DNA from: Clostridia bacterium
Lineage (GTDB): Bacteria; Bacillota; Clostridia; Oscillospirales; Acutalibacteraceae
Length of the DNA: 64,000 bases
Assembly (NCBI GenBank): GCA_017516745.1
Contig: JAFXBF010000016.1
Span: 50,596 to 114,595, forward strand
Reading direction: 5' to 3'
Part shown: piece after piece, positions 6,426-21,930 of the stretch
Numbering within the stretch: the first letter of the stretch is position 1
Layout of the letters: each line of letters starts with the position of its first letter
Notes under the pieces: generated by a model
The model's input: the letters and a program-made list of their open reading frames with translations, nothing else
Database searches by the model: none
Told to the model about the DNA's origin: nothing
Position numbers and translations under genes: made by a program

Positions 6426-6444
6426 TTTTGTAACCTCCGTTTTG

Positions 6445-7674
6445 TTAATTCTTTGTATATGTATAGTAGTTGCTGTCAATTAACTCTTTTGCGCCTTCAA
6501 AAGCCTCTTCCTTGGTACTGTAGCGTTCATAATGCGATGTTGTATCTACCCATAAAACCGTACCGCTGCTATCCTTATAACAATTGTTTATTTCGGCAAC
6601 ATAGAAATACTTTTGTGAAAACCAGCCAGTTGTTTCGTATTTCAATATTGTTATTACTTTGTTGTTGTATTTAGCGTCATCATTTGCAGCGGTAAGAATA
6701 TAACTGCCCTGTGCAGTGCTGTTGTTTTTGGTATCGACAAAAGCACTATAAATACTCTTTAAATTTTTCTTTACTTCTTCATCAGTTTTAAAAGCTTCAG
6801 GAACAAGAATAGTAAATTCTTTTTCGGTTTTAGCCAATATTGTGTTACCTCTAAGATTATGTGAGTAAGCTGTGACTGTGAGCTTTTCTCCGTTCTTCAA
6901 GTCTGTTGTTGAAGAAATGCTGAAATTAATTACTGAGTTCTCGGATTCGCTGTATTGAACCAACAACGAGTTCTTACCGGCTTTGATTATATAGTTTTCC
7001 TTTTTAACGTTTAGGTTTTCGTCAATTGCTATTGATGCTTTAACGTAACCAGATACACCCTCGAACTTCACTTCAATGTATTCAAACGGGTCTATTGCGT
7101 CACCTTTTTCGAGGTCTGCAACAATGAGCTCAACATTATCGATCTTGATTTTATAGCCAAAATCTTCAAGAGCTTTTTCGGCCTCTTTACTAAAAGAAAC
7201 AGTTGCTTCAAGCTTGTCACCGTTTGAAATATATTCTTCTTTGTTAAGTGAGCATTCCATAGTCTCGAACAAGTCTGAAAAAGCGGCATATTCACCGGTC
7301 ATCTTTTCATACAGTTCTTCGTACTTTTTAGCATATTTGCGAGCAGCTGCATCCATATCAACGCTATCAAAGTCTTCATATTTATCCATCGCCTTATTAA
7401 GATCTTCGCCGTATTTTTCATTTATTATTTCACGAAGTTTTTCGTCGATGTCTGAATGAAGAACCGTTGCTGTAGCTTTTGCATAACCGTCGAAACCGGA
7501 AACGTTGATTTGTACATATTCGGTAAGCTCAATACTTTGGCTTGTCCCGGAAGCAATTAAGCATATCGCTATAACGGCGACAATAACAGTTATGGTTGCG
7601 ATTATAATCAGTTTATATTTGCCGCCTTTTCTTTGGGTGTGGTGAATGGTGTCTGCATTAAAGTTTTCTGACAT
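6445..7674 (-). CDS. Membrane-anchored extracellular protein of unknown function, 409 residues
   Basis: A short cytoplasmic N-terminus (MSENFNADTIHHTQRKGGK) precedes one transmembrane segment at ~22-44 (LIIIATITVIVAVIAICLIA). The rest is outside the cell. It has two similar beta-rich segments starting ELTEYVQINVSGFDGYAKA (~51) and PFEYIEVKFEGVSGYVKA (~200), each followed by helical Lys/Glu-rich stretches, so an internal duplication is likely. The C-terminal ~100 residues resemble a small alpha/beta module. I do not recognise a catalytic motif. Architectures of this kind (single TM plus repeated YVxxxxSGxxGYxKA units) recur in Clostridia and may sense the cell envelope. The AGGAGGT ribosome site at 7682-7688 is strong. 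A 37-residue ORF lies just upstream. Confidence 0.7.
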   Translation of the reverse strand: MSENFNADTIHHTQRKGGKYKLIIIATITVIVAVIAICLIASGTSQSIELTEYVQINVSGFDGYAKATATVLHSDIDEKLREIINEKYGEDLNKAMDKYEDFDSVDMDAAARKYAKKYEELYEKMTGEYAAFSDLFETMECSLNKEEYISNGDKLEATVSFSKEAEKALEDFGYKIKIDNVELIVADLEKGDAIDPFEYIEVKFEGVSGYVKASIAIDENLNVKKENYIIKAGKNSLLVQYSESENSVINFSISSTTDLKNGEKLTVTAYSHNLRGNTILAKTEKEFTILVPEAFKTDEEVKKNLKSIYSAFVDTKNNSTAQGSYILTAANDDAKYNNKVITILKYETTGWFSQKYFYVAEINNCYKDSSGTVLWVDTTSHYERYSTKEEAFEGAKELIDSNYYTYTKN

Positions 7675-7819: not shown

Positions 7820-7867
7820 AATGAAACTCTCCTTTGCTTTTAATAGGCTTTTTGCCGTTCTGCCTGT

Positions 7868-7895
7868 AAGACGACGGAGAGTTTCATTCGGTTCA
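7868..7895 (-). promoter_or_regulatory. ECF-sigma-like promoter upstream of the micro-ORF cluster
   Basis: On the minus strand TGAACC (7895-7890), 16 nt and CGTCTT (7873-7868) match, with one extra spacer base, the pattern found at 11706-11732, 11791-11817 and 21676-21702. Transcription would start near 7860 and run into the 37-residue ORF and the 409-residue gene. The -35 spacer contains GGAGAGTTTCATT (7876-7888 on the plus strand), an exact inverted copy of the ribosome-site region of the micro-ORF (7820-7832). Confidence 0.5.
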
Positions 7896-7959
7896 AAGTT
7901 TTTTATTATTTTTTGCTTATGAGGTTAAGCTGCATTAAATTAAGCAACAAATCAGTACA

Positions 7960-10005
7960 TCAATACCACAGAAAACCGAAGAGGATGATATATATTAACC
8001 ACTGCCAGAATGTGAATTTTACGGTCACTTCGCAAGTATCTTTAATGGTTTCGCCCTTTTCGGTTTCAACCATTGCTGTGATTGTAGCATTACCCCTGCC
8101 GTGTGTTGTAATGCTGCCGTTTTCATCTATAGTAACAACCTTGGGATTTGATGAGGTATATGTAACAGTCAAATCTTTATCTTTGGTTGCAACGAGAGAA
8201 GCTGTTGATGTATATATAAGCTCCATTGATTTTTGTTCAAATCCGAAATTGCAAATATCAAAATCGCTAAATGATGTTGTCTTGAACACAATGTAACCAT
8301 TTTCGACTTTGCCGTTAAGAACTTCACCTTTCTTTGTTCCGTTTGCGAGAGTAATCCAATGTCTGATTAAAAACTGCTTGTAGCTTTCATATCCCGTAGG
8401 AACAGGGATTCTCACGGTATATTCAGTTGAACTTTCGTTACTCATTACAATATTACCGTTATTGTCTTCAAGGTGAATGTCGTATCTCTTAATAAGAACA
8501 CCGTCTTCATCATATTCGGCAATGTTGCTGTTTTCTATATCTTTTTCTTCAGCCTTAAGAACGATGTTATCGTTATTATCGAAATATGTTGAATCATAAT
8601 TAACCTTAATACCGTTAGATGATTCTTTCTCTACAACTTCAGGTTCTTCAGGAATTATAGGTTCATCGGGAGGAATCACAGGAACATCGTGGTTTACGTT
8701 GTGATCACAAATAGTCAAGCCAAGCGGATTTTCGACAATGCTTGTGCAGATAACAGTTGAAAGATTGTCTGTTATATCTGAATATTTGCAATTAGTAGTG
8801 TTGAAATGGATATACTCCAGGTTTGAACAACCCCAAAAGGATTTGGGTGCTATTTTCTCAACAGATGATGGTATTACTATCGACTTTAACTTTCTGCATC
8901 CGTAAAATGTGGTTTCCCCAGAAGTGATAGTTCCGTTAACGCCAACAGTAGTGATACCTTCCGGAATATTAAATGCTTCAAGATTGATACAATTCAAAAA
9001 TGCACTATTACCTATATAGTCTTTTTCGTTCAGTACTGAAGAAGGAAGTTCAATATTTTTTAATGTTGAACAATGCGCAAAAAAGTATGCTGGGATATGA
9101 GTACTGTTCATTTTAACTGTTTTAACATTACTTCCTGTAAACACACCCGAATTACTTCCGTTAAACATACCTAAATCTACCGACGAAATCCTGCCCTTGA
9201 TTTCTATAGATTCAATACTCGAACCTGAAAAGATTTCGTGTCCTAAGTTTGTTGTACTTTCAGGAATCACCAAGCTGCTAAGTTTCGAACAATTGGCAAA
9301 AACTTTGTCTCCTATATATTCAATAGTGTTAGGAATTGTACACTCTGTAAAGCAACAACCACTAAAAGCCATTGCTCCAATTGTTTTTATACCGTTAGGA
9401 ATAGAAACAGGCTCAAGATTTATACAGTTAGCAAATGCGTATTCCCCCACAATATCCTGACTGCTTTTTGCAAAATCAGGCAACTCTATTCTTTCAAGAG
9501 TTGAACAATAAGCAAACAAGTAACGAGGGATATTTGTGCCAAACATTTTTACTATTGTAACATTACTCCCAGTAAACGGGCCGGGGTTAGTAGAAGATCC
9601 TATTCCATCCCAACCAATTTCCACATTTGAAATACTACCTTGAATTTCAACTTCTGCTATCTGAGCTTTATTAAATATACGATATGATAGTTGGCTTACA
9701 GTATCAGGAATTACAACTTTATAGGATTGACAATCTTCAAAAGCTTTTTCACCGATTTTAACAACCGTGTGTTCAAATTGCCCATCTGACACACTCTCGG
9801 GAACTTCAACAATTTCCGCGCGACCACTGTATTTTGTAATCGTTGCTGATGAATCGTCATTTATAGCAAACGTAAAATCGCCATCGGTATAGTTGGCCGC
9901 GCTGGCTACTAAACAAAAATCGGCAAGGTTTATCAATGGTGCACATCCGAACATAAGCACGATTGCCAAAACGAGAGATAGAGCTTTTTTAAAAGTTTTT
10001 TTCAT
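7960..10005 (-). CDS. Secreted BspA-like LRR protein with Ig-like (Big_2) domain and WQW...WY tail, 681 residues
   Basis: A signal peptide (MKKTFKKALSLVLAIVLMFG) leads into about 350 residues of BspA/Treponema-type leucine-rich repeats with the recurring pattern AFxxCxxLxxxxIPxxxxxIG. A Glu/Pro-rich hinge follows (VIPPDEPIIPEEPEVVEKE), then an IPVPTGYE-type domain and a Big_2-like Ig domain (TYTSSNPKVVTIDENGSITT). The last 20 residues, FTFWQWLIYIILFGFLWY, form a hydrophobic tail shared with the 855-residue protein at 13485. The gene starts 20 bp after the sigma-factor fusion gene stop, so both are likely one operon. Expected role: surface adhesion or ligand capture. It is probably the direct output of the neighbouring sigma factor. 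Confidence 0.85.
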   Translation of the reverse strand: MKKTFKKALSLVLAIVLMFGCAPLINLADFCLVASAANYTDGDFTFAINDDSSATITKYSGRAEIVEVPESVSDGQFEHTVVKIGEKAFEDCQSYKVVIPDTVSQLSYRIFNKAQIAEVEIQGSISNVEIGWDGIGSSTNPGPFTGSNVTIVKMFGTNIPRYLFAYCSTLERIELPDFAKSSQDIVGEYAFANCINLEPVSIPNGIKTIGAMAFSGCCFTECTIPNTIEYIGDKVFANCSKLSSLVIPESTTNLGHEIFSGSSIESIEIKGRISSVDLGMFNGSNSGVFTGSNVKTVKMNSTHIPAYFFAHCSTLKNIELPSSVLNEKDYIGNSAFLNCINLEAFNIPEGITTVGVNGTITSGETTFYGCRKLKSIVIPSSVEKIAPKSFWGCSNLEYIHFNTTNCKYSDITDNLSTVICTSIVENPLGLTICDHNVNHDVPVIPPDEPIIPEEPEVVEKESSNGIKVNYDSTYFDNNDNIVLKAEEKDIENSNIAEYDEDGVLIKRYDIHLEDNNGNIVMSNESSTEYTVRIPVPTGYESYKQFLIRHWITLANGTKKGEVLNGKVENGYIVFKTTSFSDFDICNFGFEQKSMELIYTSTASLVATKDKDLTVTYTSSNPKVVTIDENGSITTHGRGNATITAMVETEKGETIKDTCEVTVKFTFWQWLIYIILFGFLWY

Positions 10006-10025
10006 AAGAATTTCCTCCTGTTATT

Positions 10026-11672
10026 TTAAGATACCATTACTTTGTAATAGTATGTTTTACCTTGTTCTACGCCGGGAGCAGATGAAATAATTTCGCCCTC
10101 CTCTATGGTGACCAGACCGGTGAAATGCTCTCCGTACTCCGACGTGTGCTTTAATACTTCTGTTTTTAGTGTGTTTGCTGTAATATAACTTCCGGCAGCC
10201 ACTTCAATATTGGTAATAGTTTTAAGCAGTTGCCAATCTCCGTTGTAAACACTAATTACAACCGTTGCCGTGCCGACTGTTGCGGGTTGTGTTGTAGTTG
10301 GTGCTTGCGTTGTGGTTTGTTTTGCTGTGGTAGTGGGCTTTGCGGTTGTTTGTGCGGTGGTTGTTGGCTTCGTTGTGGTTACTCTTACTGTAGTTGTGAC
10401 CGAGCCGCTTAGACCTCCGCTTGCTGACTGCTTTTTTGTTGCACTTGGTGCAACTGTCGTTTGTTTTTCTGTAGTTGCAGGTTTTGTTGTGCGTTTAACC
10501 GTTGTTGCCTGTGCGGTGGTTTTATTTTGTATAGTTGTTTTAACTGTGTCGGGTGGACCGGTTGATTGCAATACATCGGATTTTGTTGTATTGTCCGTTT
10601 TGTTCAGGGTTACGGTTATGTGCGTTGTACCATTTTCGTTTGAAACAGTTATGATTGAGTTTTTGTATTCAATTGTTGCTTCTGTGCTTCCTTCGGTTGC
10701 GATTACCTCTATGTTTTCACTTGACAGCTCGGTTGATTGCTCGGTGACAGCAGTAGTTGTTTCTTCTGCACGCTTGTCGTGCGCAACCTTTGCTGCTGTT
10801 GCACCTCCGCCGATTATAACGGCACCTGCGGCAACAATTGCAACTACCTTTGCTGTAACGCCTGTTGCAACCGTAGTTCCTGCAACTGTTGTAGCTGCAG
10901 TACTTGCCGCTGCGGTTGCCACTGCCGTGCCGGCGGTTGCTGTACTCGCAGCTGTCGCCGCTGCCGCAGTGCTTACCGCAGCAGCTTTGACACCTGCAAG
11001 TACGCTCGTATAAGCAGGGCTCGCAGCAAACGATGCCTGAGCAGTTTGGGCAGAGCTTCTGAGTGCCCAAATTATAATGCCAATCGGCGCCGCACTGTAA
11101 AGCGAGGTCACGCCCGCACGCTCAAAGCACCGTTTGAGTTCGTTACGCCCGTGGTACAGTCTCGTTTTGACCGTGCCTTCGGGAATTTCGAGGCATTTGG
11201 CAATTTCGCCAATGCTGTTTTCCTCGTAATACATCATAACGATGCACGCTTTTTTATCTTCGCTAAGCTCATCGAGCGCCTGCATAACGGTTTTTCTGAG
11301 GTCTTCCTTGTCAACGTTTTCTTCAGGTGAGAACGTCATATTCTCGTCTGCTATAACCTCATACGCTTCGTCCTCGTCACATTCAAAAAGCGAGGGCTTT
11401 TTCTTTTTTATATAATCCTTGCTTTTGTTGGCAACTATTCTATTGAACCAACTCACAAAGGTTTCGGGATTTTCAAGTTCATTGATTTTTGCAAGTGCCT
11501 TTATGTAGCTGTCCTGGAGTATATCTTCTGCATCGTCATCGTTCTTGACAAATTCCTTTGCAAGGAAAAAGGCTCTCTTGCTTGTAAGGTGATAAAGCTC
11601 CTCGAAAGCGGAATCATCACCGTTCTGTATCTGAACAACAAGCTCGGCTGTTCTTTTGAAATCAATCTCCAT
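10026..11672 (-). CDS. Membrane-tethered ECF sigma factor with Thr-rich extracytoplasmic domain, 548 residues
   Basis: I choose ATG 11672 (GGTGGTG ribosome site) over an upstream ATG at 11744. Residues ~8-90 are a sigma region 2 (DDAEDILQDSYIKAL, then WFNRIVANKSKDYIKKKK). Residues ~125-180 are a region 4 helix-turn-helix (IGEIAKCLEIPEGTVKTRLY). An Ala/Thr-rich stretch leads to one transmembrane helix at ~275-297 (VVAIVAAGAVIIGGGATAA). Outside the membrane come HDKRAEETTTA, a beta-strand segment, a long Thr/Lys/Pro linker and a C-terminal domain ending TYYYKVMVS. Sigma factor and outer sensor share one chain, so signalling probably involves proteolysis or conformational release (inference). 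A paralogue lies divergently at 11940. Two ECF-like promoters upstream suggest autoregulation. Confidence 0.88.
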   Translation of the reverse strand: MEIDFKRTAELVVQIQNGDDSAFEELYHLTSKRAFFLAKEFVKNDDDAEDILQDSYIKALAKINELENPETFVSWFNRIVANKSKDYIKKKKPSLFECDEDEAYEVIADENMTFSPEENVDKEDLRKTVMQALDELSEDKKACIVMMYYEENSIGEIAKCLEIPEGTVKTRLYHGRNELKRCFERAGVTSLYSAAPIGIIIWALRSSAQTAQASFAASPAYTSVLAGVKAAAVSTAAAATAASTATAGTAVATAAASTAATTVAGTTVATGVTAKVVAIVAAGAVIIGGGATAAKVAHDKRAEETTTAVTEQSTELSSENIEVIATEGSTEATIEYKNSIITVSNENGTTHITVTLNKTDNTTKSDVLQSTGPPDTVKTTIQNKTTAQATTVKRTTKPATTEKQTTVAPSATKKQSASGGLSGSVTTTVRVTTTKPTTTAQTTAKPTTTAKQTTTQAPTTTQPATVGTATVVISVYNGDWQLLKTITNIEVAAGSYITANTLKTEVLKHTSEYGEHFTGLVTIEEGEIISSAPGVEQGKTYYYKVMVS

Positions 11673-11705
11673 ATTTTCACCACCGTTTTGTCCTCTCACA
11701 TGCAT

Positions 11706-11732
11706 AAGACGAGCGAAAAACGAAAAGGTTTC
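11706..11732 (-). promoter_or_regulatory. ECF-sigma-like promoter P1 of the tethered sigma gene
   Basis: On the minus strand GAAACC (11732-11727), a 15-nt T-rich spacer and CGTCTT (11711-11706) match the GAAAC...CGTC form used by many ECF sigma factors. The start point would leave a leader of roughly 25-30 nt to ATG 11672. Confidence 0.65.
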
Positions 11733-11790
11733 ATAAATTTGCAAAAAAATTTAAAAAATTCAAAAATATTTTTTGCCCGTCTGCTCACCA

Positions 11791-11817
11791 TAGACGAATG
11801 AAAAAGCAAAAGGTTAC
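11791..11817 (-). promoter_or_regulatory. ECF-sigma-like promoter P2 of the tethered sigma gene
   Basis: GTAACC (11817-11812), 15 nt and CGTCTA (11796-11791) on the minus strand repeat the P1 pattern 85 bp upstream with the same spacing and a similar T-rich spacer. Tandem sites support autoregulation of the 548-residue sigma factor. Confidence 0.55.
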
Positions 11818-11872
11818 GCAAAAACAGAAAAATTTATAGAAAATTAATAAATCGCCAATTCGCTCTTTTATA

Positions 11873-11900
11873 TTGAAATAAGAATATTATTTGATATAAT
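11873..11900 (+). promoter_or_regulatory. Sigma-A-like promoter of the plus-strand tethered sigma gene
   Basis: TTGAAA (11873-11878), a 16-nt spacer and TATAAT (11895-11900) lie 40 nt before ATG 11940. No ECF-like site is visible in this direction, so the two paralogues seem to be driven differently. Confidence 0.55.
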
Positions 11901-11939
11901 TAATACATTGATTATTCTACGGAAAGGAACGGACTGCGG

Positions 11940-13466
11940 ATGAATGAGGGCGTTATTGCCTCGCTTGCCGAAAAAGCAAAGCAAGGCGATATGCAGGCGT
12001 TTGAACAGCTTTATACCGAGTTTTCACCGCTCATGTATTCAATACTGTTTGAAATTACGCACGATGCATACGAAGCGGAAAACCTAACGCAGGACTGTTT
12101 CGTTTCTGCTTTGCAAAGCATACACACACTAAAAGAGCCTGAAAAAGCAAAAAAGTGGCTCACGGCAATTGCCGCCAACCACGGTAGGGACTATTTAAGG
12201 AAGAAAAAGCCTGCTCTGCTCGGCGCAGAGCACGAATACATATTTGATATCAAAGAAGAAGAGGATGTCTCTCTTCTTCCCGAAGCGAGCACGGAGCTTG
12301 ACGAGCGAAGCAAAGAGATAAGAGAAATAGTCAACTCCGTATCGGAGGATAAGCGGCTTTGCCTTGTGCTTTTTTATCAGCACGAAATGAGCATAGCCGA
12401 AATTTCCGAAGAGCTCGGCATTTCGGAAAGCGCTGTCAAGACCCGACTTTACAGAGCGAGAGAGGATATAAAGCAAGAGGTTGAAAAGCGGAACAAAAAG
12501 GGTATGCCGCTGTTTGGTGTTGCTCCCTTGCCGCTTATACTCTTTGCTTTGCGCAAATCATCCGAAGCTGCAAGCGCTTCGTTTGCAGGCAGTGCGGCAC
12601 AGACGGCAGCCTTTGCGGCTGTTACTGCAACGGCAAACACAGCGGCAGTTACTGCGGCGGCTTCAACCGCAACTGCTGCAACAGCCACGGGCACGGCAAC
12701 CGCTTCGGCTGCAACAGCAACAACGGCAACAGCTGCTGCGACAGGTACGGCGGCAACCGCAGCCGCAACGGGCATATCCGTAAAGGTTATCGCAATAGCG
12801 GCGGCAGGTGCAGTAGCCGTCGGAGGCGGAGCAGTAGGCGCAAAGGTTGTGCACGACAGGCGTGCAGAAGAAACAACTACCGCAATAACCGAAGAATCAA
12901 CCGAGCTTGCAAGCGAAAACATAGCCGTTGCCGCTACAGAGCTCGATAGCGAAACTCAAATAACGCTTGAGAATACAACGTTAACTGTTTCAACTTCAAA
13001 CGGCACAACTGTTCTGACGGTGACAACCGCCGGCAAAACAACGGCAGCGAACAGCACCACAAAAGCAGTCACCACAAGTCAGAAAACTACAACCACCACA
13101 ACCAAGCCAACGACAACGGCTAAGCCTACGACTACAGCTAAGCCCACCACTACGGCAAAGCCGACTACGACTGCTGCTACAACAGCGGCAACTACAACGA
13201 AGCCTACAACCACAACCCAGCCGACAACCGCTGCTCCGACCACCACAGCAACTTCACCGGCAACGGTTACGGTTAAGGTTTACAGTGCAGGATCAGGAAG
13301 CGAATATAAAACCTATAGTTTAACTTTTGATGCTGGTGTTACACTTACAGGTTCAGATATCGAAACACAGCTTATGAATCAGTACGGCATAGATACTATG
13401 GCAGATACCTTCAATGTAACAACGCAGCCGGGAGGAAGCTATTCTGCAACGGCATACGAAATTTAA
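11940..13466 (+). CDS. Membrane-tethered ECF sigma factor, paralogue of the 10026-11672 gene, 508 residues
   Basis: Sigma region 2 spans ~10-90 (YEAENLTQDCFVSALQSI, WLTAIAANHGRDYLRKKKP). Region 4 spans ~130-185 (IAEISEELGISESAVKTRLY). An Ala/Thr-rich segment and a transmembrane helix at ~283-306 (VIAIAAAGAVAVGGGAVG) follow. The outer juxtamembrane motif HDRRAEETTTAITEESTE is nearly identical to that of the divergent paralogue, which shows duplication. A KPTTTA repeat linker then leads to a different C-terminal domain (ATVTVKVYSAGSGSEYKT). The conserved cytoplasmic part with divergent outer ends suggests the two sense different signals but may read similar promoters. A GGAAAGGAAC ribosome site precedes the ATG. 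It lies 18 bp upstream of the gene for the 855-residue LRR protein. Confidence 0.88.
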   Translation: MNEGVIASLAEKAKQGDMQAFEQLYTEFSPLMYSILFEITHDAYEAENLTQDCFVSALQSIHTLKEPEKAKKWLTAIAANHGRDYLRKKKPALLGAEHEYIFDIKEEEDVSLLPEASTELDERSKEIREIVNSVSEDKRLCLVLFYQHEMSIAEISEELGISESAVKTRLYRAREDIKQEVEKRNKKGMPLFGVAPLPLILFALRKSSEAASASFAGSAAQTAAFAAVTATANTAAVTAAASTATAATATGTATASAATATTATAAATGTAATAAATGISVKVIAIAAAGAVAVGGGAVGAKVVHDRRAEETTTAITEESTELASENIAVAATELDSETQITLENTTLTVSTSNGTTVLTVTTAGKTTAANSTTKAVTTSQKTTTTTTKPTTTAKPTTTAKPTTTAKPTTTAATTAATTTKPTTTTQPTTAAPTTTATSPATVTVKVYSAGSGSEYKTYSLTFDAGVTLTGSDIETQLMNQYGIDTMADTFNVTTQPGGSYSATAYEI

Positions 13467-13484
13467 TCAACGGGAAGTGCTTGT

Positions 13485-16052
13485 ATGAACTCTAATAAAA
13501 AGTTTTCAAAAATCATCTCTGTAGTAATTATTTTATCAATACTCTTAACCAACATTACAGCTTTCGCAGCTGAGCGTGAAATTACTGCAAGCGGAACTTA
13601 CCAAAAGGCATCTTGGACCTTGTACAGCGATGGTGAACTTGTAATAAGTGGTAAAGAAAAAACTGGAAATGACTGGAGAAAAGTTATTTCAAACGAAGAT
13701 GTTACCAAGGTCACAATAGGAGAAGGAATAACCTCCATTACCGGTAATGCATTTAACGGTTATAAAAATATGACAGACATTACACTTCCTTCAAGTCTGG
13801 AGACGATACATAATACTGTATTTAACGGTTGTACGGCGTTGGAAAATGTATACTATACAGGCGATATTACAGATTGGTGCTTATTGGGATTCGGTACAAA
13901 TGAGCAAAACCCATTAGAATACGCAGAAAACCTTTATATCAATAATGCGGTTATAACAGACTTGGTAATACCCGAAGGGGTTACTGTAATTGCACTTAAC
14001 GCTTTTCGTGGTTATAAAAAGCTTTCAAGCGTAACGTTCCCCAACAGCATGCTTACTATTGGAGAATCTGCATTCCGTGATTGCACTTCTCTTTCGAGAG
14101 CTTATTTTTCCGAAAGCATTGCAACGATAGGCGACTCTGCATTTTACGGTTGTACCGAGCTAAACGAAATAACACTTCCGGAAAATATCGAACATATCGG
14201 AGCGGCCGCTTTTAAAAATACAGCTTACTATAACGATGCGGCTAATTGGGATAGTGGATTCCTTTATATTGGAAGCAATCTGATAAATGCAAACGCTCAA
14301 AAAGTTTCTTCAGCCTGTAAACTTTTTTCCAAAACAAGACTTATTGCCTCAAATGCATTCTATAATTGCACGTCAATAGAAAGCATTGCTATGCCTGACA
14401 GTGTAGAATATATTAATGACAGCGCCTTTTACGGCTGTTCAAATATGAAATTATCTAATCTTCCTGCCAATCTGAAGGCAATTGATAGCGGTGCATTTAG
14501 GTACTGCGCCTTGTTGGGGGCAAATAAAGTTGAAATTCCTTCATCAGTTATCCGAATTGGCGACAATGCTTTTTATGGTTGTAATCTGAAAAGCATTATT
14601 ATCAATGACGGCCTGCAAGTAGTCGGAAGTAATGCGTTTGCAAACAATTACGAACTTACCGAAATTAACATACCGCGAACAGTTGAAACTTTGGACAACA
14701 ATTCATTTTCCTCAAGTTCGATAACGGATATATATTATGGCGACACAAAAGCGGAATGGAAACGTCTTGCAAGTGAAGTGAAAGTTGAAAACATAACAGT
14801 CCATTATACTCTCCGAAATACAGACGATTCTGTTCTCATTCAGCACACTGACAAAAACTTTATTTGGGAAGCAGGTAATGTTCATCTTGAGGTTTCGGAA
14901 ATAACTCCTGCAAGCCCTGCATATGACCGGAACGGATATTATAACAAAAATATGATAAGTCCGATTAAGGTGCTTGATATCAGAATAGTTGATGGCGACG
15001 GCAACTCCATTCAACCGCTGAGTGAGGAAAACATAACCGTAAAAATTAAAGCTCCCGACGAATTTGTAAATATGGTGTCGACCCTGCTCAATATTGAGGA
15101 TGAAGTTGATTTTAAAACGGTTGGGTTCAGTGACTGTGTGTTTTCGTACGAGAAAGACGGTGGAACTATAGCAATCAGCCTTCCTGAAGAAAAGCTGAAT
15201 AAATTAAAAATTGTTCACTGGTTTTCTGACGGAACAGAGCCGGGAGATTATGAGGTTTTTACATATGACAGAATGAAAATATATGACGGCTACATCATTC
15301 TTGAAACCAATCATTTCAGCGAATATGCTGTTTGTACGGATATGCTTGAAATCGAGCAGACCGAGCTTGAAATTGAAAACGGAAAAACGGCTCAGCTTAA
15401 TGTTACTGTCGGTGAAGGCGAGAACGTAACTTACACTTCGTCGGATGAGAATGTTGCGAAGGTTGACTCAAACGGTGTTGTTACCGCAGTCGGTCCGGGC
15501 ACAGCAACAATCATAGCTACAGTTGATGGCACGGGTGTCAGCGCAAAGTGTACGGTAAACGTTCCGTTCAGAAAATTCACGGTTAAGTGGGTTGTTGAAG
15601 GTGTTGTAACAGAGCAGGAAATAACCGAGCAATCACCATTAATTGCACCCACCGAAGCTCCGGAAAAGGCCGGATATATCTTCAAAGGCTGGTCACCTGC
15701 AGTCCCTGACACAATGCCTGCGAAAAATCTTACCTTTACAGCAGTATTTGAAGCTGCACCTGTTGCAGATATAGAGATTATCACCACCCCGACAAAAACT
15801 GCTTATACATATAAAACGGGAAATATTGATTTAAGCGGAATTGAGCTGAAAGTAACCTATGAGGACGGTTACAGCGAAACCGTAACCGATACTTCAAAAA
15901 TGACTGTCAGCGGCTTTGACAGCAAAAAGGTCGGCAATCAGACAGTTACCGTTGAATATGCAGGCGCAACTGCCGAATTCCAGGTCGGTGTTTCATACGC
16001 TTGGTGGCAGTGGATAATCCGAATTATCCTTCTCGGTATTTTCTGGTATTAA
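13485..16052 (+). CDS. Secreted BspA-like LRR protein with Big_2 and InlB-type repeats, 855 residues
   Basis: After a signal peptide (residues 1-29, ITAFAAERE) come about 400 residues of BspA-type leucine-rich repeats. They include IGDSAFYGCTELNEITLPEN and IGESAFRDCTSLSRAYF. A connecting domain is followed by a Big_2 module (VTYTSSDENVAKVDSNGVVT, ~645-685). Next are an InlB B-repeat-like segment (GYIFKGWSPAVPDTMPAKN, ~725-755) and a bacterial Ig-like domain of the TKTAYTYKTGNIDLSGIELK type. The end, WWQWIIRIILLGIFWY, matches the tail of the 681-residue protein. It is translated 18 bp after the sigma-fusion gene, so it is the probable output of that regulator. Function is likely adhesion or host-glycan/protein binding. 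Confidence 0.87.
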   Translation: MNSNKKFSKIISVVIILSILLTNITAFAAEREITASGTYQKASWTLYSDGELVISGKEKTGNDWRKVISNEDVTKVTIGEGITSITGNAFNGYKNMTDITLPSSLETIHNTVFNGCTALENVYYTGDITDWCLLGFGTNEQNPLEYAENLYINNAVITDLVIPEGVTVIALNAFRGYKKLSSVTFPNSMLTIGESAFRDCTSLSRAYFSESIATIGDSAFYGCTELNEITLPENIEHIGAAAFKNTAYYNDAANWDSGFLYIGSNLINANAQKVSSACKLFSKTRLIASNAFYNCTSIESIAMPDSVEYINDSAFYGCSNMKLSNLPANLKAIDSGAFRYCALLGANKVEIPSSVIRIGDNAFYGCNLKSIIINDGLQVVGSNAFANNYELTEINIPRTVETLDNNSFSSSSITDIYYGDTKAEWKRLASEVKVENITVHYTLRNTDDSVLIQHTDKNFIWEAGNVHLEVSEITPASPAYDRNGYYNKNMISPIKVLDIRIVDGDGNSIQPLSEENITVKIKAPDEFVNMVSTLLNIEDEVDFKTVGFSDCVFSYEKDGGTIAISLPEEKLNKLKIVHWFSDGTEPGDYEVFTYDRMKIYDGYIILETNHFSEYAVCTDMLEIEQTELEIENGKTAQLNVTVGEGENVTYTSSDENVAKVDSNGVVTAVGPGTATIIATVDGTGVSAKCTVNVPFRKFTVKWVVEGVVTEQEITEQSPLIAPTEAPEKAGYIFKGWSPAVPDTMPAKNLTFTAVFEAAPVADIEIITTPTKTAYTYKTGNIDLSGIELKVTYEDGYSETVTDTSKMTVSGFDSKKVGNQTVTVEYAGATAEFQVGVSYAWWQWIIRIILLGIFWY

Positions 16053-16060
16053 GTTAAATA

Positions 16061-16102
16061 AAAAACCTCTCGGACGTTTTGAAATGTAGCCGAGAGGTTT
16101 TT
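16061..16102. terminator. Bidirectional terminator between convergent genes
   Basis: AAAAACCTCTCGG (16061-16073) pairs with CCGAGAGGTTTTT (16090-16102). It has an A-run before and a T-run after the stem, and lies between the stops of the 855-residue LRR gene and the convergent hydrolase gene. Confidence 0.85.
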
Positions 16103-16183
16103 CTTGTGATAAAAATATATCTATATAACGAATATGATTTGTTGGAATAGTTTGCAAGAATAAATTAAAATAGTTTGCTTTTA

Positions 16184-17206
16184 TTAACCGAATAAGGGTC
16201 TGAACAAATTTCTCAATAGAATATAGATTGCCATAAATGGAGCTTTTATTATATTGAAAATGTTAATTGATGCTTTTATTTCGCTGTTATCGGTATCCGG
16301 ATTATAATCCGATGTGTGACGCATAAGCCACGATATCATTCCGTCAGGAAAGGACAGTGTAACATCTTCACCATTTCCGTCAATAGTTGACATATAAGGG
16401 TACTGTCCGTTTTCTGTTGTAAACATATCGTAGGTAACAGCCTCCCACGAATAGTGCTCTGTCGGTGCCGATTTACCGTCGGGCATACAAACCTTATGCA
16501 AAGTGGTAAATCTGCACTCTGAAGAAACATTGGTCGTTGAAATTACCGCATTCCAGTCTTTCAGAACTCTGTTCTTGTAGCTTACAAGCGGATCGTTTTC
16601 GCCTGCAACAAGCCATACCGGAACATCTGAAAGCATTTTCGCTTCCTCATTGGTTATTGTTATATAAGGGCAAATCGGGAATATTGCCGCAAACATATCA
16701 GGAAAAGTAATTGCCATTTTAAAGCTCATCATTCCGCCAAGTGAGAAGCCGCCAATATAAATTTTGGTTGTATCAACAAAATCTTTGTTTTTGATGATAA
16801 AATCGTCGATCGAAGCCTTCAACGGAGCCAACATATCATCGCCCCAAGAAATTCCGAAGTTTTCGGGTGCTCTTACAGCCATTATGTAAAAGCCCTTTTC
16901 TGTGCGTGACTGAAACTCTTCACTTGACCAGTTGACAATATCGTTTGATTTAATCTGATAGCCTTCATACTGGCCGTGCGAGTGCCCGTGCACCCATATC
17001 ACCAACGGATATTTACCGGAATCGTTGTTGCTTTCAGGCGAATAATATCTGTAATCCACAGAATACAGTCCGGTCCGTGGACCGCATCCGTATTCAAACT
17101 GTTCTCTGAGTATAGCTTTTGTATCGGTAACAGAAGCGGCCAATGATGTCAGCGGAAAACTCAATAACAAATAAATTGAAAGAAATACAGAAATAATTCT
17201 TCGCAT
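16184..17206 (-). CDS. Secreted alpha/beta-hydrolase (esterase/PHB-depolymerase-like), 340 residues
   Basis: A signal peptide (MRRIISVFLSIYLLLSFPL, cleavage near LAAS) precedes an alpha/beta-hydrolase fold. The nucleophile elbow is GGFSLGGMM around residue 165, the oxyanion region VIWVHGHSHG around residue 70, and a likely catalytic Asp follows in GENDPLVSYKNR; the His is probably in EHYSWEAV. The architecture resembles secreted dienelactone-hydrolase/PHB-depolymerase-like esterases that remove acyl groups from plant polysaccharides (family inference). The protein ends in a hydrophobic amphipathic tail (INIFNIIKAPFMAIYILL). It is convergent with the LRR gene and has its own sigma-A promoter. 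Substrate unknown. Confidence 0.75.
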   Translation of the reverse strand: MRRIISVFLSIYLLLSFPLTSLAASVTDTKAILREQFEYGCGPRTGLYSVDYRYYSPESNNDSGKYPLVIWVHGHSHGQYEGYQIKSNDIVNWSSEEFQSRTEKGFYIMAVRAPENFGISWGDDMLAPLKASIDDFIIKNKDFVDTTKIYIGGFSLGGMMSFKMAITFPDMFAAIFPICPYITITNEEAKMLSDVPVWLVAGENDPLVSYKNRVLKDWNAVISTTNVSSECRFTTLHKVCMPDGKSAPTEHYSWEAVTYDMFTTENGQYPYMSTIDGNGEDVTLSFPDGMISWLMRHTSDYNPDTDNSEIKASINIFNIIKAPFMAIYILLRNLFRPLFG

Positions 17207-17310
17207 TTTTTCCTCCCTATTCTTGCTTTAACAAGCAGTCTTGTGCTTTATACACCCTTTTTAAAAGGGAACTCACACATATGACTAATATTGAATTGCA
17301 TTGCAATATC

Positions 17311-17338
17311 AGTATACTATTTGTCAATATTTTGTCAA
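17311..17338 (-). promoter_or_regulatory. Sigma-A promoter of the secreted hydrolase
   Basis: TTGACA (17338-17333), 16 nt, TATACT (17316-17311) on the minus strand, about 100 nt before the start. The sequence TTTGTCAATA is present twice here, so a second -35 copy lies inside the spacer. Confidence 0.6.
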
Positions 17339-17425
17339 TATTTAAGAAAAACACAAGTTCGGTTTGAAAATAAATAGTGTTGATTTATTCAGAAAAGTAT
17401 TCCCGTCATATTTTCTGGATTATTA

Positions 17426-17863
17426 GGAACAAGAGGAATTGTTATCATAAATAAACCCGACGAAATCACAATTTTAAATCTGGGCGGTTTCAGAATAGAG
17501 CTTGAAGCTGCCAAATTCGGCGGAATATCCGACCCGAGAAATACTGTACTTATGAAAATGTTTACCCTTATAGATATCGGTGAACGTGCCGGAAGTGGTA
17601 TTCCGAATATCTATAGTAATTGGAACAAGCGAGACTGGTCTGTGTCGACAATCAGTGAGGAATTTGATCCTGAACGTATAACATTATCGTTACCTCTTAA
17701 AAAATTGGTACTCAGAAACTGCATTCTGAGTACCGCTTTGCTTGAGTATTCTGGTTTGATAAATGAGCATAAACAAAAACGATATAGTGGCTTTCTTCAT
17801 TTACTTCTGCTCAGAAACAAACCCTTATATTGCTCCTGTTTTACTTGTGCGTTATGTTATTAA
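17426..17863 (+). pseudogene. 3' remnant of an AlbA_2/RecG-like ATP-binding protein gene
   Basis: The frame reads GIVIINKPDEITILNLGGF, ISDPRNTVLMKMFTLIDIGE and RAGSGIPNIYSNWNK. This is the characteristic C-terminal ATPase-like end of proteins with an AlbA_2/Schlafen-type DNA-binding N-terminus (often annotated RecG-like helicases or transcription regulators). Everything upstream is missing; the frame has a stop at 17381-17383 and no ribosome site. From about 17705 the frame runs into the dispersed repeat, so the last ~50 codons are not part of the family. The remnant may come from the insertion or recombination event that placed repeat copy 2 here. Confidence 0.7.
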
Positions 17864-18157
17864 GAAATCCCCGATACGGATTTCTAAAAAACTTATGGCT
17901 GGCTGAATGGGAAATTCTGCTTTTTAGGAGGAAGCTAAAAAGCATATTCTCGGTTTGTTTTAATCTGTGTTTTCAGTCAAGAACCGATAACCTTTCCGTA
18001 TACGGAATTTCCCATTCAGTATAAATTACGGAAAGGTGTTTTAAGGGGTATTTTAAAGAGCAAAGAAAACAGTGCTTTTTAATCAATTTTTTCTTCTGAT
18101 TTTTGCCGTTTTTATAGCAACACCCAACCTGAGTTTTTATCACTCAAGTCGGGTGTT
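17705..18157. repeat. Dispersed structured repeat, copy 2
   Basis: This matches 2259-2705 in order and orientation but has clearly diverged. The first hairpin is shortened to 11 bp (17707-17717 with 17724-17734). The core stem CTGAATGGGAAATTC (17903-17917) with GAATTTCCCATTCAG (18005-18019) is perfect although several pairs differ from copy 1. The inner hairpin GCTTTTTAG/CTAAAAAGC is also re-paired. The blocks ATCCCCGATACGGATTTCT and CCTTTCCGTATACGGAATT are kept. The end hairpin (18119-18157) adjoins the stop of the papain-dockerin gene. The two copies bracket the 2.7-17.4 kb surface-protein island as direct repeats. Confidence 0.75.
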
Positions 18158-18173
18158 TATGAGTTTATATGAG

Positions 18174-20555
18174 TTATTTAATTATGAATGAAAATACAAG
18201 TGCGAAAAGCTTCTTAATTAAATTGAATATGGTTGTGATTATCGCTTCAATGCTTATTTCATCGGCTGACTGTTCGGGTGTTGTGTTTGTATCGGTTATC
18301 ACCTGATGCGTATCATCAACATCAGGTGTGATACCCGGAGTCATACCTGCGGACTGGTCAATAAGCATTACATATTCGATATAATCTGCATTTGTAGCAA
18401 GTTCTACCGCTGTTTTTGTCTGGTCAACTTTATTGAGCAACAGACCGGCACCAATGAGCAAGTCAACATCCTTATCATCTATCACACCGTCGTGATTACA
18501 GTCTGCCGCTGTCCATATTGCGGTGCCGACGTCTTCTTTATCAAGTAATCCTTTGGCAATAAGATTTACAATGAAAGCATCCTCGCCGTCATACCAGCCG
18601 TCGCCATTGATGTCGCCAAAAATAATAACGGTATATTCATCTAATATTTTATCGCCGTTTTTGAGTGTAGCCTTTGTTCCCGTGCCGAAGCCGTTTTCGC
18701 TTTCTGTATAAATCCACTCATAACCGTCAGCTACAAATGCTGTGTAGGTGTCGAGTGAAACAGCACCTGCATCAAGACCGTAGATTTTATTTTCTGCATA
18801 GTCAACAACCATTCCGTTTGTTGCTTCAAAACCTGTTGCAGGTATTGTATGTAAATCGGTTTCATTTCCACACTCTGCGCAAACCTGCTTTTTGCAGCCG
18901 TCTGTTACAGCGGTCGGCTCTGATTCAACAACCCATTGGTAATTGTGTTCAAACTTCGGAATAACTGTTGATTTAAGTATTTCTTTGCACTGTGTACATT
19001 TGGTTTCTGAATAGCCGGATTCTTTACAGGAAGCAGAAACAGTTGTGGTTTCAGCCTGATGATCACAGTTTGTGAACGCTTGAACGAAAACATTTTTTGT
19101 ACCTTGTTCTTCACTGTAGAACCAAGCAGAACGATTTGATACATATATGAAACTTTCGCCTTTGTTACTTGAATAAGTAAAATTAGCATTCTCGTATCCG
19201 AAATCATAGTCGTATTCTATCGGGATTCGGGTTACACCGTTTGTTGCTTCATATTCAATAACTACAGAAAAGTATGTATTAGGATTCAATTTGATATCTT
19301 GTGGAAGCTCTATTGTATGATAACCCTTTTTCGGAACAACAATCGGATAATTAATGGCAAGTGTACCCTGTGTGGGATCTGTGTAATTTGAATTAATATC
19401 TGTATATATTTTGATATTTAGATTTTGGTTTTCTTCGACTGTATATGTAGATACGGCGGAAAGAATTTCATGTTCGTCCGCTTTAAAAACATTGGACACA
19501 GAAGCAGGACCTTGTAATGTTCCGTACACTTGTGTTCCCGTGCCATTGTATGTGTAATTTTCTCTGTAAGTATCTGAAGGCTGTGCGGTATATCCTACGA
19601 TTTCAATTATACTTGCGTCGTAATATGATATCCAAAGATAATCGTTATTACTATCTTTACAAAGCCAAGCGCCGTCTGCGGGAGGCATGAAATCTGGTCG
19701 TCCCCATTCTGTTTCGTAATAAGAGTATTTTTCCCTCATTGGGAAGTAATCATCCCAACCTATAATGGCGACTTCATGTAAAGATGTTCTATTGTAATCA
19801 TATTCATAAGTCCAAGTAATATCTGGTCCGTTAAAATCAGCATGCATATTGCCATATGAAAAAGAAATGCTTGCCGAACCAAAATTACTAACCCAGTTTT
19901 TTACATCGGTTATGTTATTCAGCCATTCAGCGGACTTGATTACAAATCCGCTGTCTGTATTATATCGGTATGTTTCATCAATTATAGGACCTTCGCTTTC
20001 GGGAGGGAAATCAGCTTCATTAGCTATACCTGACCATCTTGCGAGAGCTCCGATAGCAGTAGAGTGAGTGGCACCGATTGCGTAAGCTCCCATTTTGTCG
20101 GCGTTGGGGTATTCTGCTATAAAATAATCGTCAGGATTAAAATTAACCGTAACACCGTCGCCATATGTAGGATTATTGACATATGTTGATTTGGTGTTGC
20201 CAAACCAAGCAAGATGAGCTTCGGAATAATCGGCGTTGATATCGTCAAAACCCTGCGAAATGTTGTATGTTTCAAGAATGCTTATTTTCGCATAGCTCCA
20301 ACAGGTTCCCCACTCTTGTCTCTTAAGTGGTGTAACCCATCCATAGTCTCTTGCATCAAACGATGACGGCAGAGCTTCATCTTCGGACATCAGCGTTATC
20401 TGACCGACGCTTGAGTATGTCGGTGTATAGCTCTTTTCCGGCAGCCCGTCGGGACTGACGATAATTTCCATATCACTCGTTTTTGCATATGCAGAAACCG
20501 GTACAGATGCTAACAGCAAACAGAGTATAAGAGTTATGGTAATAAATCTTTTCAT
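18174..20555 (-). CDS. Secreted papain-family (C1) cysteine protease with type I dockerin, 793 residues
   Basis: A signal peptide (1-24) precedes a C1 peptidase domain. FDARDYGWVTPLKRQEWGTC contains Gln80 and the nucleophile Cys85; His lies in TSLHEVAIIGWDD and the Asn region in WLCKDSNNDYLWISYYD. A lectin-like beta domain follows (~330-485). Next are two Cys-pair modules of the CTQCKEI/CAECGNE type (~490-570) and a type I dockerin at ~647-706 with two calcium loops, GDINGDGWYDGED and ADCNHDGVIDDKD. The C-terminal tail (ISIEAIITTIFNLIKKLF) is hydrophobic. The dockerin predicts docking to a cohesin scaffold; no cohesin is in this window. It is transcribed after the 293-residue LRR gene. No clear ribosome site precedes the ATG. 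Confidence 0.88.
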   Translation of the reverse strand: MKRFITITLILCLLLASVPVSAYAKTSDMEIIVSPDGLPEKSYTPTYSSVGQITLMSEDEALPSSFDARDYGWVTPLKRQEWGTCWSYAKISILETYNISQGFDDINADYSEAHLAWFGNTKSTYVNNPTYGDGVTVNFNPDDYFIAEYPNADKMGAYAIGATHSTAIGALARWSGIANEADFPPESEGPIIDETYRYNTDSGFVIKSAEWLNNITDVKNWVSNFGSASISFSYGNMHADFNGPDITWTYEYDYNRTSLHEVAIIGWDDYFPMREKYSYYETEWGRPDFMPPADGAWLCKDSNNDYLWISYYDASIIEIVGYTAQPSDTYRENYTYNGTGTQVYGTLQGPASVSNVFKADEHEILSAVSTYTVEENQNLNIKIYTDINSNYTDPTQGTLAINYPIVVPKKGYHTIELPQDIKLNPNTYFSVVIEYEATNGVTRIPIEYDYDFGYENANFTYSSNKGESFIYVSNRSAWFYSEEQGTKNVFVQAFTNCDHQAETTTVSASCKESGYSETKCTQCKEILKSTVIPKFEHNYQWVVESEPTAVTDGCKKQVCAECGNETDLHTIPATGFEATNGMVVDYAENKIYGLDAGAVSLDTYTAFVADGYEWIYTESENGFGTGTKATLKNGDKILDEYTVIIFGDINGDGWYDGEDAFIVNLIAKGLLDKEDVGTAIWTAADCNHDGVIDDKDVDLLIGAGLLLNKVDQTKTAVELATNADYIEYVMLIDQSAGMTPGITPDVDDTHQVITDTNTTPEQSADEISIEAIITTIFNLIKKLFALVFSFIIK

Positions 20556-20563
20556 AAAGCATC

Positions 20564-20593
20564 GGCAAACAAATTATCTTTAGCTTGTTTGCC
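20564..20593 (-). promoter_or_regulatory. Hairpin just before the papain-dockerin gene
   Basis: GGCAAACAA (20564-20572) pairs with TTGTTTGCC (20585-20593) 8 nt upstream of the start codon, where a ribosome site would normally lie. It could tune translation relative to the upstream LRR gene. Confidence 0.4.
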
Positions 20594-20626
20594 CTACGCC
20601 CCCTTGCCTATGTTTTGCATTTGCAA

Positions 20627-21508
20627 TTACTGACCGAATGTGAACCAAGAAACAATCATTTTGAAAAAGCTGATAACAGTTGCAAAGAAGGTTTTAATCG
20701 GAGCAAAAATCTGTTCGAATATGGACTGCTCTTCTTCGGGAACAAGATCTTCAAGTGTGTCGGGATCTACATTAAAATGAACAGCTTTAACAAACGAGTC
20801 GACTTTGTCGCCTTTATGTGTTTTCTCAAGCCAATTAAAATTAGTTACCGCCCAAAAATCCATATCCATAGTGCTCGGATGATTCCAGACAACGATATCG
20901 TTCCACTGCTCTTCAGTACCACAGTAGTACAGTTCAATATCATCCGTAAGAGAAAAAGCCTCAACTTCAATGGACTTAACGCTTGTGGGAATTACAACTC
21001 GTTTTAAATTTTGACGATTTCTGAACGCCCATAATTCAATACTTGTTACTGTATCGGGAATGATTATGCTTAATGTATTTTCGTTGCCGGCACTCATAAC
21101 TTTAGTTACTGTTTTACCTTCAAGAATAGAAGGAACTATAATATTTGCGTCTTTTTCAGTATTTTTTTCAATATCGGGGTTACCAACAATAAATAATGTT
21201 CCGTCATCTAAAACTTTATAAAGCCATCTGTCATCTTCGTTTGAATAAAGCCAGTTTTTGTTATTATAATGACGCCATTCATTGCCTTCATCATCTGTAT
21301 AGCTTAAACCATAAACATCTCTGTCCCAAAAACATTCTTCATCCGAATAAGCGGCGGAAAGATATGCAGCATCCAAAACGAATTGTTCCTGCTCATAAGC
21401 GCTGCCAATCGGTGTACCGCTGCCGGGAGCTGCGAATGCGACTGTACTCATTACAAAAACAAAAACAACTGCCAGAATGAGCGACATAATTTTCTTAAAG
21501 TTTTTCAT
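20627..21508 (-). CDS. Secreted BspA-like LRR protein, 293 residues
   Basis: A signal peptide (MKNFKKIMSLILAVVFVFVM, cleavage near AFAAPG) is followed by a Trp/Tyr-rich domain (EWRHYNNKNWLYSNEDDRW) like that of the 277-residue protein at 5592. Then come BspA-type repeats (IIIPDTVTSIELWAFRN, VVIPTSVKSIEVEAFS). The C-terminal 30 residues (IFEQIFAPIKTFFATVISF) are an amphipathic hydrophobic tail. The two small LRR proteins are therefore paralogues. The AGGAGGT ribosome site is strong. It heads an operon with the papain-dockerin protease 71 bp downstream, behind an ECF-like promoter and a ~155-nt leader, which links it to the tethered-sigma regulon. Confidence 0.82.
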   Translation of the reverse strand: MKNFKKIMSLILAVVFVFVMSTVAFAAPGSGTPIGSAYEQEQFVLDAAYLSAAYSDEECFWDRDVYGLSYTDDEGNEWRHYNNKNWLYSNEDDRWLYKVLDDGTLFIVGNPDIEKNTEKDANIIVPSILEGKTVTKVMSAGNENTLSIIIPDTVTSIELWAFRNRQNLKRVVIPTSVKSIEVEAFSLTDDIELYYCGTEEQWNDIVVWNHPSTMDMDFWAVTNFNWLEKTHKGDKVDSFVKAVHFNVDPDTLEDLVPEEEQSIFEQIFAPIKTFFATVISFFKMIVSWFTFGQ

Positions 21509-21675
21509 AAATTTACCTCCTGAAACTTCGTGCCCTAATATATATGATTGTTACGGCACATTTTTATTAATGAAATCCGGCGTTGCACTTATTAGCTGCT
21601 TTTCAAAAAATTTGTCAAAGTCTACATAAAACGACATTGCAGTTTAAGAGCAAGTTTGTCAGCTTTCTGTAAACA

Positions 21676-21702
21676 TAGACGAATGAGATATGAAAAGGTT
21701 TC
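21676..21702 (-). promoter_or_regulatory. ECF-sigma-like promoter of the LRR/papain-dockerin operon
   Basis: GAAACC (21702-21697), 15 nt and CGTCTA (21681-21676) on the minus strand are the best match to the two sites upstream of the sigma gene at 10026-11672. On the plus strand the shared block reads ATAGACGAATGA here and at 11790. Confidence 0.65.
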
Positions 21703-21737
21703 AACTTTTTTGAAAAATTTTAAAAGTTAACAATAAA

Positions 21738-21895
21738 AAAGTGCGCAGCCAGAAGCTACGCACCGAAAAATACATAGCTCCGATTGCTGCGACACAATTC
21801 TGCCTTCTGCGTGAGAATGCTGAGAAAAGAGCATGTATTTTTACCAAAGATAAAAATACAAACTCACGCTTTAGGCCAATATTGAATTGTGTCGC
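21738..21895 (-). ncRNA. Candidate small RNA of about 158 nt with own promoter and terminator
   Basis: A sigma-A promoter ends 7 nt before 21895. The predicted first base starts a 12-bp closing stem (21884-21895 with 21789-21800). Inside are a GCC/GGC pair, a 7-bp stem (GCGTGAG/CTCACGC) and two apical hairpins. One is GTATTTTTA/TAAAAATAC; the other is ATGCT/AGCAT with a CTTTTCTC loop. Together they form a three-way junction. A Rho-independent terminator follows: GTGCG.AGC with GCT.CGCAC (21741-21763) and then TTTTTTATTG. No protein is encoded. The pyrimidine-rich loop could pair with ribosome-binding sites. I do not recognise it as 6S, SRP or another known family. Confidence 0.65.
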
Positions 21896-21901
21896 ACTAA
21901 T

Positions 21902-21930
21902 AGTATATCATTTGTTTTTCAGCGTTTCAA
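21902..21930 (-). promoter_or_regulatory. Sigma-A promoter of the small RNA
   Basis: TTGAAA (21930-21925), exactly 17 nt, TATACT (21907-21902) on the minus strand. Confidence 0.7.

Follow-up and report, generated by a model that had tools for sequence, protein, structure and literature searches.

Promoters of autoregulated extracytoplasmic function (ECF) sigma factors carry AAC in the -35 element and CGT in the -10 element, and autoregulation is the usual habit of these factors, as described in excerpts of PMC8103513. Excerpts of PMC8999054 describe ECF48/52/53 (SCO4117) and ECF243 (IutY) as ECF sigma factors with membrane-bound C-terminal extensions; proteolytic release is shown there for IutY and expected for ECF48/52/53. 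The locus described here contains two tethered ECF sigma genes, candidate ECF-type promoters and a structured leader RNA, and lies in a 64,000 nucleotide (nt) stretch of the Clostridia bacterium assembly GCA_017516745.1 (GTDB lineage Bacteria; Bacillota; Clostridia; Oscillospirales; Acutalibacteraceae), contig JAFXBF010000016.1, positions 50,596 to 114,595 of the forward strand. This whole stretch is called the window, and coordinates are window positions unless a contig or locus is named; the genome to which it belongs (G000) comprises 2.89 Mb, and 11 genomes make up the same-genus comparison set. The locus is best read as an autoregulated tethered ECF sigma operon together with one leucine-rich repeat (LRR) operon, rather than as a surface regulon of wide extent. 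Ahead of the second operon stands what appears to be an uncatalogued structured RNA, which the original prediction, made from the sequence alone, had not seen and which we regard as a more novel result than the promoter sites.

The original prediction had placed an ECF-type pattern at four minus-strand sites. When both strands were scanned with spacers of 14–17 nt, the pattern was found at all four and nowhere else in the window. Two of the sites precede sigA (10026..11672, minus strand), the gene of the tethered sigma factor SigA. Candidate promoter P1 (11706..11732, GAAACC-N15-CGTCTT) has its -10 box 33 nt from the sigA ATG at 11672, giving a short leader, and candidate promoter P2 (11791..11817, GTAACC-N15-CGTCTA) is located 85 bp further upstream. 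Candidate promoter P3 (21676..21702, GAAACC-N15-CGTCTA) lies about 168 nt ahead of the start of LRR293 (20627..21508, minus strand), which encodes an exported LRR_5 protein of 293 residues. The gene context is thus as it had been described, and the T-rich spacers ascribed to these three sites are also present, each beginning with TTTT. All three carry AAC and CGT at ECF spacing and share a tight word, AACCTTTT-N6-TC-NN-TCGTCT, whose only exact matches genome-wide are these three sites; no further site differs from it by one mismatch, and a single one differs by two.

The fourth site (7868..7895, minus strand, TGAACC-N16-CGTCTT) is without the T-tract and is not established as a promoter. It is situated within one arm of an inverted repeat (7820..7888, minus strand) with a 13-bp perfect core (7820-7832 / 7876-7888), the opposite arm of which covers the start region of a micro open reading frame (ORF). 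The leader in this region folds with a z of -2.33.

Because the tight word had been defined from the sites, a weight matrix was built from eight sites ahead of tethered sigma genes in other genera, and 127,900 window positions were scored with it. P3 ranked first (22.0), P1 second (20.7), P2 fourth (15.4) and the fourth site fifth (15.0), compared with best scores of 12.8–15.3 in ten locally shuffled windows; P3 and P1 exceed all ten, and the other two are at the edge of chance. When single training sites were omitted P3 and P1 stayed the top two, and the worst ranks were 12 for P2 and 13 for the fourth site (L099 omitted). As their ranks survive both shuffling and single-site omission, P3 and P1 stand on their own. 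The case for P2 rests on the shared word and on the tandem P1/P2 pair, which is kept in the same-genus genome G002. A footprint of the sigA promoter region between G000 and G002 was uninformative because the entire intergenic stretch is similar.

Homologs of SigA at E 1e-20 occur in 19 of 150 genomes of the family. Their external parts differ, and several consist of LRR repeats. Upstream regions were taken from 23 of 26 SigA-homolog loci, with L075, L082 and L086 dropped (unclear start or cut flank, in-frame stops, no start found), and from 15 of the 18 loci inspected in a second set of 80, with L119, L124 and L136 excluded because their sigmas are short. With SigA excluded, AAC-N16/17-YGTC is present in 9 of 37 upstream regions, compared with a shuffle mean of 1.9 (0/300 shuffles reach 9) and with 2 in antisense, the Y having been admitted after inspection of some of the regions. 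The textbook form AAC-N16/17-CGT is found in 8 of the 37 (shuffle mean 3.9, with 8/300 reaching it; antisense 5). Comparison across homologs therefore supports a reading of the tethered sigma as autoregulated. The proposal of autoregulation is supported to the extent that ECF-type sites do recur ahead of tethered sigma homologs; SigA is a candidate reader of the sites in the window. By eye, short ORFs of about 40–60 codons are visible just upstream of the sigma start in L067, L071, L072, L073, L093, L096, L098, L099 and L101, in the gap that separates the tethered sigma gene from an ECF-type site or from the preceding gene. Under a strict rule, a small ORF lies between site and sigma gene in 7/38 cases versus 27/380 random positions, and such an ORF ahead of tethered sigma genes is suggestive only as a real feature.

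Leaders of the attenuator or riboswitch type combine a structured 5' region, an alternative helix formed over long range and a terminator placed close ahead of the ribosome-binding site. The structured leader RNA ahead of LRR293 is 190 nt in length (21729..21918, minus strand; 155.5 bits), and its 3' end is 26 nt upstream of promoter P3. It is composed of a closing helix P1, a long-range helix P4 (AAAAAUACAUGCUC with GGAGCUAUGUAUUUUU) that crosses helix P1, and an intrinsic terminator of 9 pairs at the 3' end (21740..21764, minus strand). A housekeeping-type promoter of its own is predicted at 21902..21930 on the minus strand (TTGAAA-17-TATACT with TG ahead of the -10; 10/12). By DNA search the stretch was found in 9 of the 11 same-genus genomes, with 29 matches. 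The structure was examined in an alignment of 25 copies (A5; 26 anchored copies, minus the false L238 and the cut L305, plus a hand-placed copy from L089). Changes on both sides are found in 8 of 12 pairs of helix P1, 4 of 14 of helix P4 and 5 of 9 of the terminator, in which 99.1% of cells are paired. For the whole structure 96.8% of cells pair and 0/500 shuffles reach any of five measures; slid versions of it are only 35–58% paired. Helix P4 taken alone exceeds all 500 shuffles in cells paired and in covariation, its pairs with both-side changes are reached by 10/500, and in further pair types it does no better than shuffles (303/500). An antiterminator, in which 93.3% of cells would pair, is possible but gains no support from covariation.

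With a covariance model the RNA was detected in at least 116 of 300 family genomes and at least 58 of 135 genera, with up to eight candidates scored per genome. Rfam 15 at curated thresholds gave no family over the RNA in nine sequences (window 1-24000 and eight loci), and the sub-threshold match over the L280 copy, to MIR7996, has 26.6 bits versus 119 (E 0.62). The RNA is not described in the literature searched; the supplementary tables of PMC8040213 lay outside that search, and an earlier unnamed listing is possible.

Genes behind the RNA were examined for the 45 copies that could be anchored by sequence pattern in L277-L335, L203 and L213, tandem copies having one next gene in common in the counts. 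An ORF follows within 260 nt in 41 of them. In 26 of the 45 it begins within 60 nt of the terminator, and these 26 ORFs have a ribosome-binding site. By a simple hydropathy rule 30 of the 41 next ORFs have exported or membrane-like starts, compared with 22 of 115 baseline ORFs; because the copies are related, the naive p of 9e-14 is indicative only. Ten next ORFs were scanned with Pfam and seven gave matches, including CHAP, LRR_5, Flg_new and Lectin_C. Alternatively, the RNA could be an independent small RNA or a mobile element that stands ahead of P3 by accident. This would explain its separate promoter and terminator, the tandem copies (L282, L292), the 4 of the 45 copies without a close ORF behind them and the variation of copy number between genomes. 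However, the terminator is so near the ribosome-binding site that an attenuating leader fits better, the excess of exported-looking next ORFs argues in the same direction, and helix P4 overlaps the stretch just ahead of the terminator. We therefore consider a free RNA unlikely, and prefer an attenuating leader.

Once one training site known to stand behind an element had been removed from the matrix, 5 of the 45 copies had an ECF-type site above the 99% null at no more than 200 nt past the terminator. The five copies are those in the window, in G081 (ahead of a tethered sigma gene), on contig C24 of G000 (ahead of a zinc-ribbon gene), in G294 and in G159, the last two sites having been found via the RNA and not via the promoter. 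G294, which belongs to another genus, carries an ortholog of LRR293 with 40% identity, and the RNA, the ECF-type site and the gene stand in the same order; this site scores 14.7 versus a null maximum of 12.2. RNA and ECF-type site, as recognized by their sequences, do recur together in other genera. The zinc-ribbon protein gene on contig C24, with its RNA copy (14253-14440, minus strand) and ECF-type site (14094-14118, minus strand), lies beside and divergent from a third tethered sigma gene, the product of which has an LRR_5 C-terminal part (G000:C24:14535-16283, plus strand).

The explanation that we favor joins promoters for a tethered ECF sigma, most likely read by SigA, with an RNA attenuator that an ECF promoter bypasses, and as a whole we hold it to be moderately probable. 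A surface signal would be felt by the external C-terminal part of SigA, and the sigma domain would be freed, probably by proteolysis as its architecture suggests. Once free, SigA would increase transcription of its own operon, sigA and a surface LRR protein gene, through the tandem P1/P2, and through P3 that of a second operon, which encodes LRR293 and a protein of 793 residues. SigB, the second tethered sigma, would be driven by a housekeeping-type promoter. The separate housekeeping-type promoter upstream of P3 would make the 190-nt terminator-ended RNA, which would attenuate basal transcription of the LRR293 operon, and P3, lying behind the terminator, would bypass the RNA when the sigma is active. 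A more general form is tentative and, in our estimate, falls somewhat short of probable: a widespread leader RNA would end transcription of surface-protein genes across the family unless signalled, and tethered-sigma promoters behind its terminator would let a cell-surface sensor override the RNA sensor at these genes, sometimes at the sigma gene itself.

Several results weigh against this explanation. The genome scan proposed with the original prediction (GAAACC-N14..17-CGTCT) gave 6 matches versus 8 for the reversed pattern in the 2.89 Mb, hence no enrichment, and the tight word with up to three mismatches is likewise not enriched genome-wide (33 matches versus 50 for the control). With up to one mismatch the word is present in only 2 of the 11 same-genus genomes, and the strict form CGTC occurs in 2 of the 37 homolog upstream regions, which is not significant. 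AACYTTTT-N11/12-YGTCT, searched in 20 genomes (the 19 with a SigA homolog and G002), gave 39 matches versus 85 backward and is thus not enriched in number; 30 of the backward matches had a locus and could be classified. By position the two do differ, 19 of the 39 matches standing ahead of a same-strand gene versus 4 of the 30 controls (p 0.0018). When nine matches that had shaped the pattern are removed, the counts are 10/30 versus 4/30 ahead of genes (p 0.06) and 5/30 versus 1/30 ahead of exported genes (p 0.10). As to the RNA, covariation of the alternative antiterminator helix is within that of shuffles (54/500), the RNA model had no match in the 676 kb surrounding 61 ECF genes, of which 15 encode tethered sigmas, and the RNA is present in 2 of the 26 SigA-homolog loci. 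The ECF-type site of the G159 tethered sigma scores 11.0, under the null maximum. Finally, sigma region 4 has 25 matches in the genome, and the reader of the sites could be any one of these.

The last point also bears on a reading in which SigB or another ECF sigma recognizes the three sites, so that a constitutive SigB would act on sigA and on the LRR293 operon in a cascade with no self-loop. SigB (11940..13466, plus strand; 508 residues) was recognized as a second tethered ECF sigma from Pfam and hydropathy and has 46% identity to SigA over the aligned part. Its predicted housekeeping-type promoter (11873..11900, plus strand; TTGAAA-16-TATAAT with TG ahead of the -10; 11/12) is the best-scoring of the region, where such matches number 37 versus 36.3 in shuffles, and no good ECF site for SigB was found on its strand. 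In other genera, however, the site precedes the homologous gene with no second sigma seen adjoining in several stretches, and autoregulation is described as usual for ECF sigmas in the excerpts of PMC8103513. Reading by SigB or another sigma is in our view somewhat less likely still than a free RNA, and SigA remains the preferred candidate.

The original prediction extended the promoters to a broad surface-protein regulon. This was not supported: the proposed pattern shows no genome-wide enrichment, and the tight word serves two operons only. Since only 2 of about 20 LRR_5 ORFs in G000 are found behind a tight site, the regulon would be small and local. The link to exported proteins survives in part, as sites in G130 and G294 do precede exported genes. 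In G130, a genome of another genus, five of six sites are ahead of genes, namely those of a tethered sigma, two BspA-type LRR_5 proteins, a lipoprotein/Big_2-YARHG operon and a kinase. Assuming about 17 LRR_5 ORFs and 2000–2400 genes, and uncorrected for the picking of this genome, the probability of such placement by chance is about 3e-4 if the sigma is left out and at most 5e-6 if it is counted. An extended motif, searched in 398 family genomes with up to one mismatch, gave 21 matches in 17 genomes versus 8 for the control; its six exact matches are at tethered sigma or G130 target genes, the sites of which had shaped it. A broad regulon with sites too degenerate for exact patterns would accommodate the LRR and lipoprotein genes for exported products that are targets in G130, G081, G001 and G294, but enrichment is lacking at every stringency applied to the window's own genome and about 18 of 20 LRR_5 ORFs there are without a tight site, which makes it very unlikely.

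Equally improbable is a reading of the sites as fortuitous resemblances, or as a short stretch that was duplicated, with no promoter function. In its favor, AAC and CGTC are brief sequences, the tight word came from the sites and two of the four lie at the edge in the matrix test. Against it, the matrix derived from other genera places P3 and P1 above every one of the ten shuffles, the spacers are not alike between sites and a similar site precedes the LRR293 ortholog of G294.

SigA (548 residues) and SigB both comprise sigma regions 2 and 4, one strong hydrophobic helix (near residues 276–294 in SigA), a stretch rich in Ser and Thr and, at the C-terminus, a small domain. In both SigA and SigB, Sigma70_r2 and Sigma70_r4_2 are above the Pfam cut-off, with no region 3 model listed, and a hydrophobic helix behind the sigma domains is indicated by hydropathy only (19-residue window means of 2.14 and 2.01, respectively). 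At E 0.001 Pfam returned only sigma and helix-turn-helix models for the two proteins, with no zinc-finger and no FecR match, and their small C-terminal domain is without a Pfam match. That domain was modelled as beta-beta-alpha-beta with a mean predicted local distance difference test (pLDDT) score of 70.7 and gave weak ubiquitin-like and MUB-like matches; against the PDB there was no match at E 0.001, the best being 0.018. In the AlphaFold model of the N-terminal part of SigA the sigma domains are confident. Residues 211–320 score below 50, and we therefore make no statement on a built-in inhibitor.

Each tethered sigma gene of the window is followed by a gene for an exported protein. A 681-residue LRR_5/Big_2 protein (7960..10005, minus strand) is encoded 20 nt behind sigA, probably in one operon with it, and an 855-residue LRR_5/Big protein (13485..16052, plus strand) 18 nt behind sigB. 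Both end in a WQW tail, and a hydrophobic tail of the form W-W/F-Q-W...F-W-Y/F is common to exported proteins adjoining tethered sigma genes in G000, G002 and G001 (further examples at L204:12906-16241 and L212:5003-8620). Short amphipathic or hydrophobic tails rich in Phe, for example FFLSLFPSK and LFRPLFG, are found on the exported proteins at 5592-6479, 16184-17206, 18174-20555 and 20627-21508, where they are perhaps an anchoring signal. LRR293 is the first gene behind P3, and 71 nt behind it is the gene for the exported protein of 793 residues (18174..20555, minus strand). Papain- and dockerin-like features that had been assigned to this protein are visible by eye; Pfam at E 0.001 yields only Lectin_like. 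Proteins that share its C-terminal part, which begins at about residue 505, are encoded in 8 of the 11 same-genus genomes, own genome included (G000:C25, C13), and in several genomes on the same contig and strand as an RNA copy. A footprint of P3 within the genus was not obtainable from these relatives, the matches outside the window covering only residues from about 505 onward.

The literature searched has little on how these Clostridia control their surface proteins, BspA-type LRR and CHAP proteins among them. Such control should be open to testing with a few reporters, given a tethered sigma that has no separate anti-sigma, a small and defined set of targets and a leader RNA that recurs ahead of surface-protein genes. 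Should the RNA prove to be an attenuator, it would constitute a novel family of regulatory RNAs, found in over one third of the family genomes searched. Like known leaders of the attenuator or riboswitch type it has a covarying structure and an intrinsic terminator ahead of a gene; unlike them, it has no Rfam 15 family above threshold in the nine sequences scanned, and the genes behind it are mostly exported-looking.

Relative to autoregulated ECF promoters as described in excerpts of PMC8103513, the sites here are alike in having AAC and CGTC 16 nt apart ahead of the sigma's own operon. They are unlike them in the T-tract after AAC, the TC-NN-T ahead of the -10 box and the presence of two tandem sites, and no separate anti-sigma gene was seen adjoining. 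Compared with the systems covered by the excerpts of PMC8999054, neither the zinc-finger of ECF48/52/53 nor the FecR part of ECF243 was matched in SigA or SigB by Pfam, for which reason SigA was not filed in either group. The external parts here are small beta-rich domains or BspA-type LRRs, and the host belongs to the Clostridia. The overall plan is nevertheless the same as in the excerpts of PMC8999054, with sigma domains, a transmembrane stretch and an external part, so that a free anti-sigma would not be needed, and by analogy SigA may work like ECF48/52/53 or IutY.

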